The position numbers were made by a program, and so were the translations under genes. 64,000 bases of DNA from Frigoribacterium sp. PhB116 (lineage in GTDB: Bacteria > Actinomycetota > Actinomycetes > Actinomycetales > Microbacteriaceae). Location: positions 868,001 through 932,000 of the forward strand of contig NZ_SOBE01000002.1 of the NCBI RefSeq assembly GCF_004364285.1, in the 5' to 3' direction. This document shows, piece by piece, positions 43,994 to 52,461 of this stretch; the first letter of the stretch is position 1; each line of letters starts with the position of its first letter. The notes beneath the pieces are model-generated. The model was not told the DNA's origin, searched no databases, and saw nothing but the letters and a program-made list of their open reading frames with translations.

Positions 43994-44410
43994 GTGACCG
44001 ACCTCCAAGAGACCCTCGTCCTCGTCAAGCCCGACGGCGTCGCCCGCGGCCTCACCGGCGAGATCCTCCGCCGCATCGAGGCGAAGGGCTACTCGCTCGT
44101 CGACCTGCGCCTCGTCCAGGCCGACCGCGACCTGCTCGCCCAGCACTACGAGGAGCACGTCGGCAAGCCGTTCTACGAGCCGCTCGTCGAGTTCATGCAG
44201 AGCGGCCCCACCGTCGCGATCCGCGTCGCGGGCAACGGCGTGATCCCGGGCTTCCGTTCGCTCGCCGGCACGACCGACCCGACCACTGCGGCCCCCGGCA
44301 CGATCCGCGGCGACCTCGGCCGCGACTGGGGCCTCGCCGTGCAGCAGAACCTCGTGCACGGCAGCGACAGCCCCGAGAGCGCCGCGCGCGAGCTCGCTCT
44401 CTGGTTCTGA
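43994..44410 (+). CDS. ndk: nucleoside-diphosphate kinase
   Basis: A 138-residue enzyme that equalises nucleoside triphosphate pools via a phosphohistidine. The catalytic His lies in NLVHGSDSPESA (about residue 117), preceded by the nucleotide-binding segments VKPDGVARGLTGEILRRIE and GTTDPTTAAPGTIRGD. Length and motif order are standard. The GTG start follows AAGGAG by 6 nt. It has the same position after folC-DUF4233 as Rv2445c in M. tuberculosis. Directly downstream lies the abnormal G/C homopolymer hairpin. Confidence 0.97.
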   Translation: MTDLQETLVLVKPDGVARGLTGEILRRIEAKGYSLVDLRLVQADRDLLAQHYEEHVGKPFYEPLVEFMQSGPTVAIRVAGNGVIPGFRSLAGTTDPTTAAPGTIRGDLGRDWGLAVQQNLVHGSDSPESAARELALWF

Positions 44411-44431
44411 TCCCTTTGAACCCTTGACCGA

Positions 44432-44584
<153 letters not shown>

Positions 44585-46678: not shown

Positions 46679-49603
46679 GTGGTGGACAAGAACGACAACG
46701 ACAGAGACGGCCAGCCGAAGAAGAAGAGGGGCCTGTTCGCCGGGCTCCTGTCGCGCCAGGTGCCCGCACCGGCGACGACCGCGCGCCGCGCGCTCGGCAC
46801 CGCCCCCCACGACCGGAACGACGACGCCCAGGAGGCTTCCCCCGTGACCACCGAGAAGGAGGTCGGGGCCGAGGCCGCGACCAGCAGCACCAGCATCGAC
46901 ACCGCCCGCCCCGCCCAGCCCGAGGCCGTCGTCGACACCGAGGCCGTCCAGGCCGACATCGCCGCCGTCGCGCCGCCGCGTGCCGAGGCCCCGGCCGACG
47001 ACGCGGGCGACGTCTCCGCAGCCGAGTCGGGTCCCATCCCGGCCCAGCTCACCACGACGAGCCTGATCTTCCACGCGCCCGAGATCCTCCCCCTGCCGGC
47101 CCGGCCGGGGCGTCGTCGCCACGACGACGAGTGGGACGACCGCGACGACCGTGACGACCGCGACGACGACGACCGCGACCAGCGTGACGACGACCGCGAC
47201 GACGACGACCGCGACGAGCCGCAGCGCGGCACCTCCCGCCGTCGCCAGCGCGGCCGCTCGCAGGACAGGGAAGAGCGCGACTCCGAGCAGCGCCAGGGCG
47301 GCGACCGCGGCGACCGTCGCGAGCGCCCGCAGCGCCAGGTCGAGCTCATCACCGAGCCGCAGCGCATCAAGGGCTCGACCCGTCTCGAGGCCAAGAAGCA
47401 GCGCCGCCGCGACGGCCGTGACGCCGGCCGCCGACGCACCGTCATCACCGAGGCCGAGTTCCTGGCCCGCCGCGAGAGCGTCGACCGCAAGATGATCGTC
47501 CGCTCGTCGGGCGACCGCATCGAGATCGGCGTCATGGAGGACGGCACCCTCGCCGAGCACTACGTCGCCAAGGCGCAGAACGTCTCGCTGATCGGCAACG
47601 TCTACCTCGGTCGCGTCCAGAACGTGCTCCCGAGCATGGAGGCGGCGTTCGTCGACATCGGACGCGGCCGCAACGCCGTGCTGTACTCGGGCGAGGTCGA
47701 CTGGGACTCGCTGTCGAACGGCAACCAGCCCCGCCGCATCGAGCTCGCGCTCAAGCCCGGCGACCGCGTCCTCGTCCAGGTCACGAAGGACCCGGTGGGC
47801 CACAAGGGCGCCCGTCTCACCAGCCAGATCTCGCTGCCCGGCCGCTACCTCGTCTACGTGCCCAACGGCTCGATGAACGGCATCAGCCGCAAGCTCCCCG
47901 ACACCGAGCGCGCGCGCCTCAAGAAGATCCTGAAGGAGGCGCTGCCCGAGAACGCGGGAGTCATCGTCCGCACCGCGGCCGAGGGCACCACGGAGGAGCA
48001 GCTCACCCTCGACATCACGCGCCTCACGAACCAGTGGGCCGACATCAGCAGCAAGGTCGAGGCCGGCAACGCCCCCGCGCAGTTGCACTCGGAGCCCGAC
48101 CTGCTGATCAAGATCGTGCGTGACGTCTTCAACGAGGACTTCCACGAGCTCGTCATCGACGGCGACGACGCCTACGACACCCTCCAGTCGTACCTGTCGG
48201 CCGTCGCGCCCGACCTGCTCGACCGCGTGAAGCGCTACGAGGGCGACCGCGACGCGTTCGACGAGCACCGCCTCAACGAGCAGATCGAGAAGGCGCTCGA
48301 CCGCAAGGTCTGGCTGCCCTCCGGCGGCTCGCTCGTCATCGACCGCACCGAGGCCATGACGGTCGTCGACGTCAACACGGGCAAGTTCGTCGGCTCCGGG
48401 GGCAACCTCGAGGAGACGGTCACGAAGAACAACCTCGAGGCCGCGGAGGAGATCGTCCGCCAGCTGCGCCTCCGCGACATCGGCGGCATCATCGTCGTCG
48501 ACTTCATCGACATGGTCCTCGAGTCGAACCGCGACCTCGTGCTCCGCCGGCTGGTCGAGTGCCTCAGCCGCGACCGGACCAAGCACCAGGTCGCCGAGGT
48601 CACCTCGCTCGGCCTCGTGCAGATGACGCGCAAGAAGCTCGGCCTCGGCCTGGCCGAGTCGTTCGCCGAGGCAGGCAGCGCCGCACGCGTGCAGGAGCAG
48701 CAGCCCCGCAAGGGCCAGGAGCAGCGCCGCCGTGGCGGAGCCCAGGCCGGCAAGCAGGGCGGCGCGGCGGGCGCCTCCGGCGGTCAGGGCCGCGGCCAGG
48801 GCGGCCAGGCGGGCTCGTCGGCACACCCGACGACCGGCACGCACGCCATCACCGACGACGTGAAGAACGCGCTCTCGCGCATCGCGGCGTCGACCATCGC
48901 GCACGCCGAGGACGGCGACCGGCCGGCCGACAGCGACAGCGCCGCCACGGCGGCGGCCGCGGTCGAGGCGGCCATCGACGCCGCCGCGGCCTCGGTGTCG
49001 TCCACGCGAGCCGACGAGGCCCAGGACGACTCGTCCGACGAGCCGCGTCGCAGCCGGGGCGGCCGCAAGGGCCGTCGTGGCTCGCGGTCGCGCGACGCCG
49101 AGCAGGGCGAGCAGCAGGGCGGCCAGCAGGGCGGCCGACAGCGCGACGCGCAGGCCGACGACCAGTCGGCCCGCGAGACGGCCCCGGTCGCCGAGGCGCC
49201 GACGTCGGCACCCGTCGTCGAGGCCCCGGCTGCCGACGTCGCCCCCGCGGCGGCGCAGCAGCCGGCCGCAGCCGCCGAGCCCGCGGCCCCGGCGAAGCGC
49301 GGCAGCCGCCGTGCGGCGTCGACCGCCACGGTCACCCCCGAGGCGTCCGTCGCGATCCTCGACATCCCGGTGGCCGCGACCCGTCGCGAGCCGCGCAAGA
49401 TGAGCACGCACGACGCCGAGCAGATCCTCGACAGCGTGCTCGGCGCGCTGCCCGAGCCCAAGCAGCCCGGACAGGGCCGCGGCCGTTCGCGCCGGGCCTC
49501 GAGCTCGGGCACGACGACGGCAGCCGCGTCGTCGGACGCGTCCGAGCAGGCCGAGGGCGGACCGTTCATCCTCGGCGTGGGGGTCAGCTCCGACGAACTG
49601 TGA
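46679..49603 (+). CDS. rne: ribonuclease E/G
   Basis: A 974-residue endoribonuclease central to mRNA decay and rRNA maturation. Disordered acidic/basic N- and C-terminal arms (for example the RDD repeats at about 150-185 and Ala/Gln/Arg-rich regions after 670) flank the catalytic core, as in mycobacterial RNase E. The S1 domain is around KMIVRSSGDRIEIGVMEDG; the catalytic Mg site is in MTVVDVNTGKFVGSGGN and IVVDFIDM. The zinc-link region reads RDRTKHQV without the paired Cys of E. coli, as usual in actinobacteria. The GTG at 46679 follows GAGGAG; an adjacent GTG at 46682 is equally possible. Confidence 0.95.
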   Translation: MVDKNDNDRDGQPKKKRGLFAGLLSRQVPAPATTARRALGTAPHDRNDDAQEASPVTTEKEVGAEAATSSTSIDTARPAQPEAVVDTEAVQADIAAVAPPRAEAPADDAGDVSAAESGPIPAQLTTTSLIFHAPEILPLPARPGRRRHDDEWDDRDDRDDRDDDDRDQRDDDRDDDDRDEPQRGTSRRRQRGRSQDREERDSEQRQGGDRGDRRERPQRQVELITEPQRIKGSTRLEAKKQRRRDGRDAGRRRTVITEAEFLARRESVDRKMIVRSSGDRIEIGVMEDGTLAEHYVAKAQNVSLIGNVYLGRVQNVLPSMEAAFVDIGRGRNAVLYSGEVDWDSLSNGNQPRRIELALKPGDRVLVQVTKDPVGHKGARLTSQISLPGRYLVYVPNGSMNGISRKLPDTERARLKKILKEALPENAGVIVRTAAEGTTEEQLTLDITRLTNQWADISSKVEAGNAPAQLHSEPDLLIKIVRDVFNEDFHELVIDGDDAYDTLQSYLSAVAPDLLDRVKRYEGDRDAFDEHRLNEQIEKALDRKVWLPSGGSLVIDRTEAMTVVDVNTGKFVGSGGNLEETVTKNNLEAAEEIVRQLRLRDIGGIIVVDFIDMVLESNRDLVLRRLVECLSRDRTKHQVAEVTSLGLVQMTRKKLGLGLAESFAEAGSAARVQEQQPRKGQEQRRRGGAQAGKQGGAAGASGGQGRGQGGQAGSSAHPTTGTHAITDDVKNALSRIAASTIAHAEDGDRPADSDSAATAAAAVEAAIDAAAASVSSTRADEAQDDSSDEPRRSRGGRKGRRGSRSRDAEQGEQQGGQQGGRQRDAQADDQSARETAPVAEAPTSAPVVEAPAADVAPAAAQQPAAAAEPAAPAKRGSRRAASTATVTPEASVAILDIPVAATRREPRKMSTHDAEQILDSVLGALPEPKQPGQGRGRSRRASSSGTTTAAASSDASEQAEGGPFILGVGVSSDEL

Positions 49604-49621
49604 CTCGTCTAGGGTGACGGA

Positions 49622-50443
49622 GTGACTTCGACACCGCAGCCCGGCGCGGCGACCGACCGGTCGTCCCGTCGGGCTGCGGTGTTCGTGCGCCGGGCGGCCT
49701 CCGAGGTCCGAGGCCTGCGGTCCGACCGGGGCCGGAGCCGCCTCCTCTCCGCCGCGACCGCCCTCGGAGTCGTGCTCGTCGCACGGTTCGCCCTGGGTCT
49801 CGCGGCGCTCGTCGGCTCGGCGCTCGGCTACTCGGTGACGCCCTGGCCGAGCGACTTCACGGCGACGCCGGTCGGCCAGTTCCTCGGCAGCTTCGTGCTC
49901 TACCCGTTCCCGTTCTACCTCGTCGCGTTCGTCGTCCTGCTGCTCGTGCGCCCCGTCGACGCCGGTCTGTCGCTGCCCCGGGCGCTGCGCCACGGTCTCG
50001 TCGCCGGTGCCGCGGGCACCGTCGCCCTGGCCCTCGTCGGCATCGTGCCCGGGGTGGCGGCGTCGCTGAGCGGGGGCACCTGGGTCAACCTCGCGCTCTA
50101 CCTCACGACCATCCCCTTCGCCGCGGGCGTCGTCGACACGGCGCTGCTGCTCGTCGGCGTGGTGCTCGCGTGGCACGCGTCCCGTGCGGCGACGATCCCG
50201 GGCGACCCGGTCGACGTCGAGTCCGGCGGCGACGAGATGCCCGCCGCCGACCAGGTCGAGCCCCACCCTGCCCCCGTCGAGGTCCCGACCGTCGAGGAGG
50301 CGCCGGCCGGCCCCCGGGGACGCGTCCACGACACGGCACGCGAGCCTGCCCCCGCGACCCGGCCCACGCCTCCTCGGAGCGCCTCCGCCGCCGACGACTG
50401 GTCGCGCTTCGCGCCCCCCGCCGCCGACGGGGACGACCGGTGA
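49622..50443 (+). CDS. hypothetical membrane protein, first gene of the rne-obgE cassette
   Basis: A 273-residue protein with a basic N-terminus and four or five membrane segments between about residues 40 and 190 (LLSAATALGVVLVARFALGL, FPFYLVAFVVLLLV, LVAGAAGTVALALVGIV, IPFAAGVVDTALLLVGVVLAW). The last 80 residues are soluble, rich in Pro, Glu and Ala, and end DDWSRFAPPAADGDDR. No family is recognised. The GTG start is 18 nt after rne. The 3' end is part of a 62-bp tandem duplication shared with the next gene, and its stop overlaps a GTG at 50440. Confidence 0.7.
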   Translation: MTSTPQPGAATDRSSRRAAVFVRRAASEVRGLRSDRGRSRLLSAATALGVVLVARFALGLAALVGSALGYSVTPWPSDFTATPVGQFLGSFVLYPFPFYLVAFVVLLLVRPVDAGLSLPRALRHGLVAGAAGTVALALVGIVPGVAASLSGGTWVNLALYLTTIPFAAGVVDTALLLVGVVLAWHASRAATIPGDPVDVESGGDEMPAADQVEPHPAPVEVPTVEEAPAGPRGRVHDTAREPAPATRPTPPRSASAADDWSRFAPPAADGDDR

Positions 50444-50543
50444 GCGCCTCCCTCCGCGAACGCGACGTCCTCCGCCGGGCCGCCGCCGACGGGGACGACC
50501 GGTGAGCGCGCCCCTCCGCGAACGCGACGCCCTCCGCCGAGCT
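50420..50543 (+). repeat. 62-bp tandem duplication across a gene junction
   Basis: Unit 1 (50420-50481) and unit 2 (50482-50543) agree at about 57 of 62 positions. Each contains the end of the upstream reading frame (AADGDDR, stop) and the GTG plus first codons of the permease. Because 62 is not a multiple of three, the copy created a new short frame linking the two. Confidence 0.85.
50440..50505 (+). CDS. 21-codon junction peptide created by the duplication
   Basis: Starting at the GTG of the first repeat unit, this frame reads VSASLRERDVLRRAAADGDDR and stops at 50503-50505. Its start overlaps the previous stop (GTGA, 50440-50443) and its stop overlaps the permease start (GTGA, 50502-50505). 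It consists of a permease-like N-terminus joined to the C-terminus of the upstream protein. It may be translated as a passive relay; a function of the peptide itself is doubtful. Confidence 0.4.
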   Translation: MSASLRERDVLRRAAADGDDR

Positions 50544-51557
50544 GCCCACGAGCACGCCACTGCCCGCCGGTCGAGGCGCGGACCGCTGCTCGCGGTCGGG
50601 ATCGGCATCGCGGCGGTGCTGCTCGTGCTGCGCGTCGCCAGCCCGGCGCTCGGCTCGCAGCTGCTGCCCGACACGCTCCAGGACTTCGTCACCCTCACCA
50701 TCAGCGTGATCGTCGAGTCGGTGCCGTTCGTGCTGCTGGGCATCGTCCTGTCGATCATCGTGCAGGTCTGGCTGCCCCAGGCGTTCTTCACCTCGTGGCT
50801 GCCTCGACAGCCGCTGCTGCGCCGGGCCGTCATCTCGTTCCTCGGCATGTTCCTGCCGGTCTGCGAGTGCGGCAACGTGCCCCTGGCGAGGGGGCTGGTC
50901 CTCAAGGGCTTCACCGTCTCGGAGTCGATGACGTTCCTGCTGGCCGCCCCGATCCTCAACCCGATCACGATCATCACGACGCACCAGGCGTTCGGCTGGA
51001 GCGACGGCATCCTCGTCGCCCGGCTGGCGGGCGGGTTCCTCATCGCGAACCTGATCGGCTGGCTCTACAGCCGCCACCCCGACCCCGAGAGCCTGCTCAC
51101 CCGCTCGTTCGCGGCCGAGTGTGCGCTGCCCCAGGAACACGGCCACAGCGGCGCCTCGAAGCTGCGCGAGAGCGTCGAGCTGTTCCGTCGTGAGATGTCG
51201 ACCATGATGCCGGCGCTGTTCATCGGTGCCGCCGTGGCCGGCGGCATCCAGACCGCGGTGCCGCGCTCGGTGCTCGTCACCCTGGGCAGCAACCCCGTCT
51301 GGTCGGTGCTCGCGATGATGGTCCTGGCCTTCGTCATCTCGCTCTGCTCCAACGTCGACGCGTTCTTCGTGCTGCCCTTCGCGTCGACCTTCATGCCCGG
51401 CGGCATCGCGGCGTTCCTCGTCTTCGGGCCGATCATCGACGTCAAGATGCTGGCCCTGCTCCGCACGACGTACCGACCGCGCACCCTCGCGCAGCTGACC
51501 CTCGTGGTGGCGCTGACCAGCGCCGCCATCGGACTGGTGGTGAACTACTTTGCCTGA
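50502..51557 (+). CDS. UPF0718-type permease
   Basis: A 351-residue membrane protein with about eight segments. The motif LPVCECGNVPLARGL, with the Cys-x-Cys pair, and AAPILNPITIITTHQAF identify the UPF0718/DUF318 permease family, distantly related to ArsP. The companion gene downstream is the TIGR03943 subunit, as in many Gram-positive bacteria, where the pair is often under zinc (Zur) control; a role in metal or metalloid export is inference. The true start is the second of two duplicated GTGs (50502); the first would be out of frame. Confidence 0.85.
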   Translation: MSAPLRERDALRRAAHEHATARRSRRGPLLAVGIGIAAVLLVLRVASPALGSQLLPDTLQDFVTLTISVIVESVPFVLLGIVLSIIVQVWLPQAFFTSWLPRQPLLRRAVISFLGMFLPVCECGNVPLARGLVLKGFTVSESMTFLLAAPILNPITIITTHQAFGWSDGILVARLAGGFLIANLIGWLYSRHPDPESLLTRSFAAECALPQEHGHSGASKLRESVELFRREMSTMMPALFIGAAVAGGIQTAVPRSVLVTLGSNPVWSVLAMMVLAFVISLCSNVDAFFVLPFASTFMPGGIAAFLVFGPIIDVKMLALLRTTYRPRTLAQLTLVVALTSAAIGLVVNYFA

Positions 51558-52461
51558 CTCCTCCCCGCGCGACTCCACGCGCGCTCCCGGCGCTGCCCGC
51601 ACGCCGCTCCGCCTCGACGCCGTCTCGCGCCTCGCCGATCGCTGGCAGGGCGTGCTCCTGACCCTCGTGGTCGGCATCTCGACCCTGTGGCTGTCGGCCA
51701 CGGGGCAGCTCGTGCTCTACATCCACCCGCGCTACGTCGTGTTCACCGTGATCATGATCGCGATCGGCATGGTGTTCTCGCTCGGCGTGCTCGTCCTCGC
51801 GCCGTCGTCCCGCGACGCGGGAGCCGAGGACGACGGGCACGGCCACGACGGCCACCACCACGACCCACACGCGGACGAGCTCCGTGCCCCGGCCGAGCGT
51901 CCCCGCCGCCGCCGTCGTGGCCGTGCGGCCGCCCGCACGGCCGCCGTCGCCGGGGGCGCGCTCGTCACCACCGCCGTCGCCGTGTCGCTCGTCGTCCTCC
52001 CGCCCGCGACGCTGACGAGCGCGACGGCCGGCCAGCGCGACGTGAACTCGTCCACCGCCTCCCTCGCCGGCACGAGCGTCGAGGACGCCGCGTCCGCGGA
52101 CGCCGACGCCTACGCGGCGTTCTCGGTGCTCGACTGGGCGGGGCTGCTGCGGCAGACCAGCGACCTGTCGTTCTTCGAGGGCAAGACCGCCGACGTGGTC
52201 GGCTTCGTCGTCCCGGCCGGCGACGATCCCGACGTGTTCTACGTGTCCCGCTTCGTCGTCACCTGCTGCGCCGTCGACGCGCAGCCGGTGGGCGTGCCGG
52301 TGCACCTCGTCGACTGGCGCAGCCAGGTGTCGGCCGACGAGTGGCTCGACGTCTCCGGCGGCTTCCAGACGAACCCGAGCCGCACGTCGAGCGACCCGAT
52401 CGCCCTGGTGCCCGACGAGCTCGAGAAGGTCGGCCAGCCGAGTGACCCCTACCTCTACTGA
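51550..52461 (+). CDS. TIGR03943-family permease partner protein
   Basis: A 303-residue protein starting with TTG inside the end of the permease gene (8-nt overlap). It has two N-terminal membrane helices (GVLLTLVVGISTLWLSATGQ, VIMIAIGMVFSLGVLVLA), a His/Asp-rich loop (DDGHGHDGHHHDPHADE, about residues 94-110) apt for metal binding, a further helix near 135-155, and an outer domain with YVSRFVVTCCAVDAQPVGVPV, the family signature. It is presumed to work with the UPF0718 permease in metal handling. Function is not established for any member that I know. Confidence 0.85.
   Translation: MPDSSPRDSTRAPGAARTPLRLDAVSRLADRWQGVLLTLVVGISTLWLSATGQLVLYIHPRYVVFTVIMIAIGMVFSLGVLVLAPSSRDAGAEDDGHGHDGHHHDPHADELRAPAERPRRRRRGRAAARTAAVAGGALVTTAVAVSLVVLPPATLTSATAGQRDVNSSTASLAGTSVEDAASADADAYAAFSVLDWAGLLRQTSDLSFFEGKTADVVGFVVPAGDDPDVFYVSRFVVTCCAVDAQPVGVPVHLVDWRSQVSADEWLDVSGGFQTNPSRTSSDPIALVPDELEKVGQPSDPYLY

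Follow-up and report, generated by a model that had tools for sequence, protein, structure and literature searches.

A 62-bp tandem duplication of an overlapping stop/start junction in three Frigoribacterium species, and the 21-codon frame it creates

We found that the junction between two adjacent genes of Frigoribacterium sp. PhB116 has been duplicated in tandem, and that the copy carries a short hybrid reading frame which may hand ribosomes from the upstream gene to the downstream one. The window analysed was a 64,000-nt stretch of contig NZ_SOBE01000002.1 (positions 868,001 to 932,000), and all coordinates given below are positions within the window on its forward strand. The duplicated junction is a GTGA stop/start overlap which joins a gene of 273 amino acids to an ArsP_1-type permease gene, and a repeat search of the 64-kb window placed it in two adjacent 62-nt tandem units, at 50418–50479 and 50480–50541, which are 94% alike. 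No other tandem repeat of the window scored as high (TRF score 223, vs 129 for the next). Unit 1 comprises the end of the upstream gene, the GTGA junction and a copy of permease codons 1–13; unit 2 comprises the copied gene end, the GTGA junction and the present permease start. The initial annotation of this DNA had described a 62-bp tandem duplication of a gene junction, which the repeat search confirms, and its coordinates of 50420–50543 denote the identical repeat shifted two bases along. The divergence between the units that it reported is also real; it gave about five differences, and counted from the repeat listing 58 of the 62 bases are identical, leaving four.

The relay frame (50440–50505; 21 codons plus a stop, VSASLRERDVLRRAAADGDDR) begins at a GTG at 50440 which overlaps the upstream stop codon TGA at 50441–50443, and its own stop codon TGA at 50503–50505 overlaps the permease GTG at 50502. 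A hybrid frame of 21 codons with a GTGA overlap at both ends had been annotated from the letters alone, and both our reading of the sequence and the list of open reading frames agree with this. The N-terminal part of the relay copies the permease N-terminus (VSAPLRERDALRRAA...) and the C-terminal part copies the C-terminus of the upstream protein (...AADGDDR). Frames of equal length are open in two further species, G015 and G012, and the three relay peptides, VSASLRERDVLRRAAADGDDR in the window, VTAPLRERDVLRRAADDGDER and VRAPLRERDVLHRAADDGDGR, have amino acids in common according to the pattern VxAxLRERDVLxRAAxDGDxR.

The existence of this frame had been presented as unexpected, on the grounds that a 62-bp shift is out of frame, but that framing is overstated, as the frame follows automatically from 62 = 3 × 20 + 2. 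By arithmetic, when a length L with remainder 2 modulo 3 is copied, the first start reads copy 1 in the frame of the downstream gene, after which copy 2 is entered in the frame of the upstream gene and translation would end on the copied upstream stop, which overlaps the second start. A remainder of 0 would lengthen the N-terminus of the downstream gene, if the frame was open, and a remainder of 1 would overrun the second start. As 62 leaves a remainder of 2 on division by 3, a 21-codon frame links the upstream stop to the permease start, and because both of its halves were already coding the relay was open at birth, with the exception of the joint codon. No selection is required to produce such a frame; it is sufficient to copy an NTGA junction with a length of remainder 2.

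We compared the junction across 16 Frigoribacterium genomes, one per species. The upstream gene and the permease gene are linked in 15 of these and apart in G007. Twelve of the linked pairs are joined by a single NTGA overlap (GTGA in 11 and ATGA in one, G009) and three carry the 62-bp duplication: the window's own species (G000), G015 and Frigoribacterium sp. ACAM 257 (G012). In one genome, G010, the permease has a longer N-terminus, and the overlap is found at its start, 126 nt further upstream. In each of the three duplicated species the spacing is still 62 nt, GTGA is retained at both sites, the 21-codon frame is open and the copy number is two (one genome per species). The initial annotation had proposed checking the junction in relatives and had held that the structure has persisted; persistence is borne out more strongly by this comparison, with intact 21-codon frames in 3 of the 16 species genomes, all in one clade.

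This clade was found in a permease tree of 15 rows, from which G007 and a second permease copy of G014 were left out. The three duplicated species group together with support of 100/99 and the single-copy F. faeni AS3.2 (G003) is placed next to them, also with support of 100/99. Synonymous divergence of the permease is 0.22–0.26 among the three duplicated species and 0.27–0.35 to G003. Because the carriers form one clade, the duplication most likely arose once and has outlived two speciations. Relay base 29 is T in unit 1 of all three species, C in unit 2 of all three and C in G003; relay base 33 is C in unit 1 of all three, C, G and G in unit 2, and G in G003. These patterns favour one duplication before the species split, and three independent duplications are disfavoured by the unit-1 T at base 29 and by the single clade. 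A single origin in the common ancestor of the three species is well supported.

Identity between the units over one period is 0.94 in G000, 0.90 in G015 and 0.84 in G012. At relay bases 5 and 12 the pattern among species is identical in both units, and immediately ahead of GTGA the two units agree with each other within G000 and within G015. As the units share states within species, limited exchange (homogenisation) between them is suggested.

We then considered the pattern of base changes within the relay, counted as the minimum number of changes among the three species over its 63 coding bases and compared by one-sided binomial tests. Changes at codon positions 1, 2 and 3 numbered 1, 4 and 9 (9 of 14 at third positions, P = 0.017). 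The first 39 bases, which derive from the permease, had 1, 2 and 8 changes (8 of 11, P = 0.009), and the last 24 bases (eight codons) had 0, 2 and 1, without a codon pattern (P = 0.70). For comparison, permease codons 1–13 had 1, 1 and 7 changes and the whole permease 10, 2 and 86. When the homogenised bases 5 and 12 were dropped, third positions accounted for 7 of the 9 changes left in the first part (hand count; binomial P = 0.008). It should be noted that these tests were post hoc, having been chosen after the data were seen, and that they concern 14 changes in three sequences. A neutral simulation (5,000 runs, with fourfold-site branch lengths, assumed G+C-rich frequencies and an assumed rate ratio, and no gene conversion) gave expectations of 6.7, 9.7 and 6.9 changes at codon positions 1, 2 and 3. 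Together, positions 1 and 2 were expected to change 16.4 times and were observed to change 5 times (P = 0.0004, 0.04% of runs); third positions therefore change approximately neutrally and positions 1 and 2 less than neutrally. The codon-position pattern fits a translated relay frame and gives it support, if weak, and we infer that the relay is translated.

The following sequence of events would account for the junction as it stands. A 62-bp tandem duplication in the common ancestor of the three species would have copied a conserved 4-nt stop/start overlap, perhaps via slippage or recombination between short GCCGCC-type matches, a putative microhomology between the last codons of the upstream gene and the first codons of the permease gene. 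Ribosomes which finish the upstream gene would then restart at GTG 50440 and translate the relay peptide, stop at 50503–50505 and restart once more at the permease GTG at 50502. The relay would in this way keep 4-nt overlaps at both steps in place of a 58-nt gap, and its peptide would probably be a carrier of ribosomes, not a protein with a job of its own. In one study of E. coli gene pairs, 38 nt between stop and restart lowered reinitiation by 80–90% in two pairs, while a third pair lost it completely; for coupling, the final 15 nt of an upstream gene were enough (PMC10666635). We consider this whole explanation, of a single duplication of a conserved overlap and a ribosome relay through the 21-codon frame, to be somewhat probable.

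By our own reading, a GGGGA which could serve as a weak Shine-Dalgarno-like sequence lies at 50429–50433, and its copy at 50491–50495 lies inside the relay frame. Each is six bases ahead of its GTG (50440 and 50502 respectively) and is a weak candidate ribosome-binding sequence. Shine-Dalgarno duplex energies were −6.5 to −9.5, within the 5% to 50% range obtained for random sites and so not distinct from these, using an rRNA tail longer than the core. The start sites were no more accessible than their surroundings, with accessibility near background. The junction RNA was no more structured than its shuffles and, if anything, less so (z = +1.73; 193 of 200 shuffles folded at least as well), and Rfam gave no match at gathering scores in 49500–51000. 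We rejected a regulatory RNA as a candidate on these three counts: no Rfam match, no unusual structure and start sites that are not unusually open.

The relay could alternatively be an arithmetical by-product which is translated little or never, with the permease started independently at GTG 50502 and the duplication drifting. This is possible, though we hold it to be less likely than the ribosome relay. The frame was open at birth whatever its use, and the GGGGA ahead of the two starts is identical, so the copied one might start the permease alone. Survival of the frame is weak as proof of function, given that a stop was gained in none of the relay copies in 91% of the neutral simulations and that frame-changing indels between the window and the other duplicated species are few in crudely called intergenic DNA (0.55 per 66 nt for G015 and 0.38 for G012). 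The relay also differs between species at 7, 10 and 9 of 63 bases (11–16%), above the average of crudely called intergenic DNA (7.5–7.6%). A passive spacer is, however, at odds with the concentration of changes at third codon positions and with first- and second-position changes that are too few compared with the neutral simulation. The relay peptide could also have its own function, for example in regulating the permease, and be kept for its amino-acid sequence: that sequence is alike in the three species, and in the first part nonsynonymous changes are few compared with synonymous ones. This we think unlikely, as nonsynonymous differences in the relay still number 3.5–5.5 per species pair, the peptide has by our reading no run of a single codon of the kind seen in attenuators, and neither the folding of the RNA relative to shuffles nor the Rfam search of 49500–51000 points to a regulatory structure.

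A mobile element inserted at the junction, like the MIRUs of mycobacteria, would reproduce the geometry, as a MIRU also has an ORF coupled at −4 spacing (PMC12548453). We nevertheless regard an insertion as highly unlikely, given that the unit is built from sequence of the two genes themselves: one half corresponds to the adjoining gene end and the other to the adjoining gene start, and both of these are native to the locus and also present in the single-copy outgroup G003. We found no scattered homologous units of the MIRU type in the window's own genome or in 394 genomes of the class. The 62-bp unit had one full-length match in its own genome, with 11 other matches each of at most 53.6 bits, and although 195 of the class genomes (own genome included) had some match at E 0.001, the best outside the unit's own locus was a partial one of 53.6 bits, vs 224 bits for the unit itself. 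An assembly artefact was also considered. Tandem repeats can be mis-assembled. We judged an error very unlikely, and the least likely of the readings considered, because the assemblies of two other species show the duplication with different bases, making three separately assembled genomes, and one of these two assemblies is a single contig of 3.33 Mb.

The ribosome relay which we favour resembles several known arrangements. According to a 2025 review, MIRUs appear to be mobile and insert at start codons, where the gene is likely to be affected only minimally (PMC12548453); they occur at 41 places in H37Rv (PMC2734929), and the unit at senX3-regX3 is 77 bp (PMC9392950). The Frigoribacterium unit is likewise a short repeat at a gene junction with an internal ORF coupled at −4 spacing, and 77 also leaves a remainder of 2 modulo 3. 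The MIRU-type relay geometry, with a start on the upstream stop and a stop on the downstream start, was found in all three duplicated species. However, the 55- and 79-bp mycobacterial units described for rnc-fpg1 (PMC2734929) do not fit, leaving a remainder of 1 and starting 40 bp after the stop, and MIRUs are a scattered, seemingly mobile family, whereas the Frigoribacterium unit was copied locally from the junction at which it lies. We filed the unit, on its sequence features, as a putative variant of the short-ORF relay kind and not as a MIRU, because it is native to its junction and lacks a second full-length copy in the genome.

In a bicistronic design, the ribosome-binding region of the second cistron lies inside a short first cistron whose stop falls on the second start. 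Such designs are synthetic short leader ORFs which deliver ribosomes to a gene (PMC5995908, PMC12548453), and the relay resembles them in being a short first cistron with a candidate second ribosome-binding region within and a stop on the next start; it differs in being natural, within an operon and born by duplication. With gene pairs which undergo termination-reinitiation at 4-nt overlaps (PMC10666635, PMC6728339), the junction shares GTGA at both steps, and the single overlap is common in the genus: the conserved −4 overlap of coupled pairs was present in 12 of 12 single-copy linked pairs. It differs from them in that the overlap is duplicated and a 21-codon frame stands between the genes. 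The short ORF mgtQ between Salmonella mgtC and mgtB has a strong AGGAGG, starts 51 nt past the upstream stop and, according to the headings of the paper, works with alternative stem-loops (PMC8092293). Both are short frames which lie between two genes of an operon and precede a transporter, but the Frigoribacterium relay overlaps the stop, has a weak ribosome-binding candidate and is predicted to have no unusual structure. A literature search which covered few subscription papers gave no report, among the matches listed, of a junction duplication producing a relay ORF in bacteria.

We surveyed 3,076,826 nt for other duplicated junctions, comprising the window, 400 kb each of G000, G021, G029, G032, G036 and G037, 80 kb each of G015, G012 and G003, and 55 loci (L038–L092). 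After crude filtering, 539 single NTGA gene pairs remained; these are not all independent, because pairs from the three sister species repeat genes of the window. Duplicated junctions were found at three independent places (5 rows), all with remainder 2: the present junction (3 genomes), one in Microbacterium rhizomatis (L045; 20 bp, 90% over the period) and one in G037 (23 bp, 83%), this last case being weak and perhaps due to chance. As only two of these places were not chosen in advance, 3 of 3 with remainder 2 is suggestive at most of a preference. NTGA pairs lying in 14–79 bp tandem repeats in any context, unfiltered and from seven sources, numbered 123 with remainder 0, 21 with remainder 1 and 24 with remainder 2, which counts against a general preference for remainder 2 over 1 (24 vs 21). 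An earlier scan of less DNA had returned a 108-bp repeat in G000 (contig C1), without a relay, which failed the later filters; the 85% limit of that scan excluded the G012 units. The M. rhizomatis repeat (L045, 6302–6347) is a 20-bp duplication of an ATGA junction which yields a predicted 7-codon relay, MTRNPPK by our own reading, between an ORF of 481 amino acids and the next gene, a different gene pair from that of Frigoribacterium. Its downstream gene was found in two more of 65 loci (L046 and L061), each with a single GTGA overlap by our reading. Judged by its sequence, this is a second, independent junction duplication with a putative relay.

A coupled small ORF of this kind would have been born in one step from two existing genes, and the single-copy state survives in sister species. 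From the arithmetic comes a simple rule, open to testing, on the lengths at which a duplicated junction could leave a coupled operon functional. The single overlap and the relay form a natural pair of states for testing termination-reinitiation. More tentatively, stop/start overlaps may act as a filter on duplications, such that mainly remainder-2 lengths survive, the hybrid peptide being there from the outset to pass ribosomes on; events like this, if recurrent, could give rise to new small coupled ORFs, and possibly to MIRU-like elements, with the Frigoribacterium ORF already under codon-level constraint after two speciations. We regard this wider proposal as speculative and rather unlikely to hold in full.

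The upstream gene (49622–50443, from the ORF list) encodes 273 amino acids which are membrane-like by reading, and at E 0.001 its product matched neither a Pfam nor an NCBIfam family. Homologues were found in 17 of 60 genomes searched, namely all 16 Frigoribacterium species genomes and one of another genus. The protein evolves fast, with a dN of 0.11–0.14 vs < 0.01 for the permease among the three duplicated species. Even so, in 12 of 15 species it ends in DDWSRFAPP followed by a short tail; 2 others have close variants, and no such ending is present in the stretch printed for G010. The permease gene (50502–51557, with its GTG overlapping the relay stop) encodes 351 amino acids with an ArsP_1 domain (PF03773, Pfam E = 7e−59), and relatives are present in all 16 Frigoribacterium species genomes. 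The second permease copy, elsewhere in G014 (L025, contig C4), is 64% identical to that of the window, and the sole copy in G007, which is unlinked to the upstream gene, is 61% identical. A gene for a putative permease subunit of the TIGR03943 family follows at 51550–52461 (NCBIfam E = 2e−40) and, provided that its TTG start is listed correctly, overlaps the end of the permease gene by 8 nt.

Elsewhere in the window, approximately 137 bases at 44440–44576 are nearly all in homopolymer runs of G or C, including 30 Gs at 44491–44520 and 20 Gs at 44540–44559. This stretch lies between convergent genes, according to crude gene calling. Alignments to G015, G012 and G003 break at 44408–44412 and resume at 44575, with approximately 43–46 bases between these points in those species.
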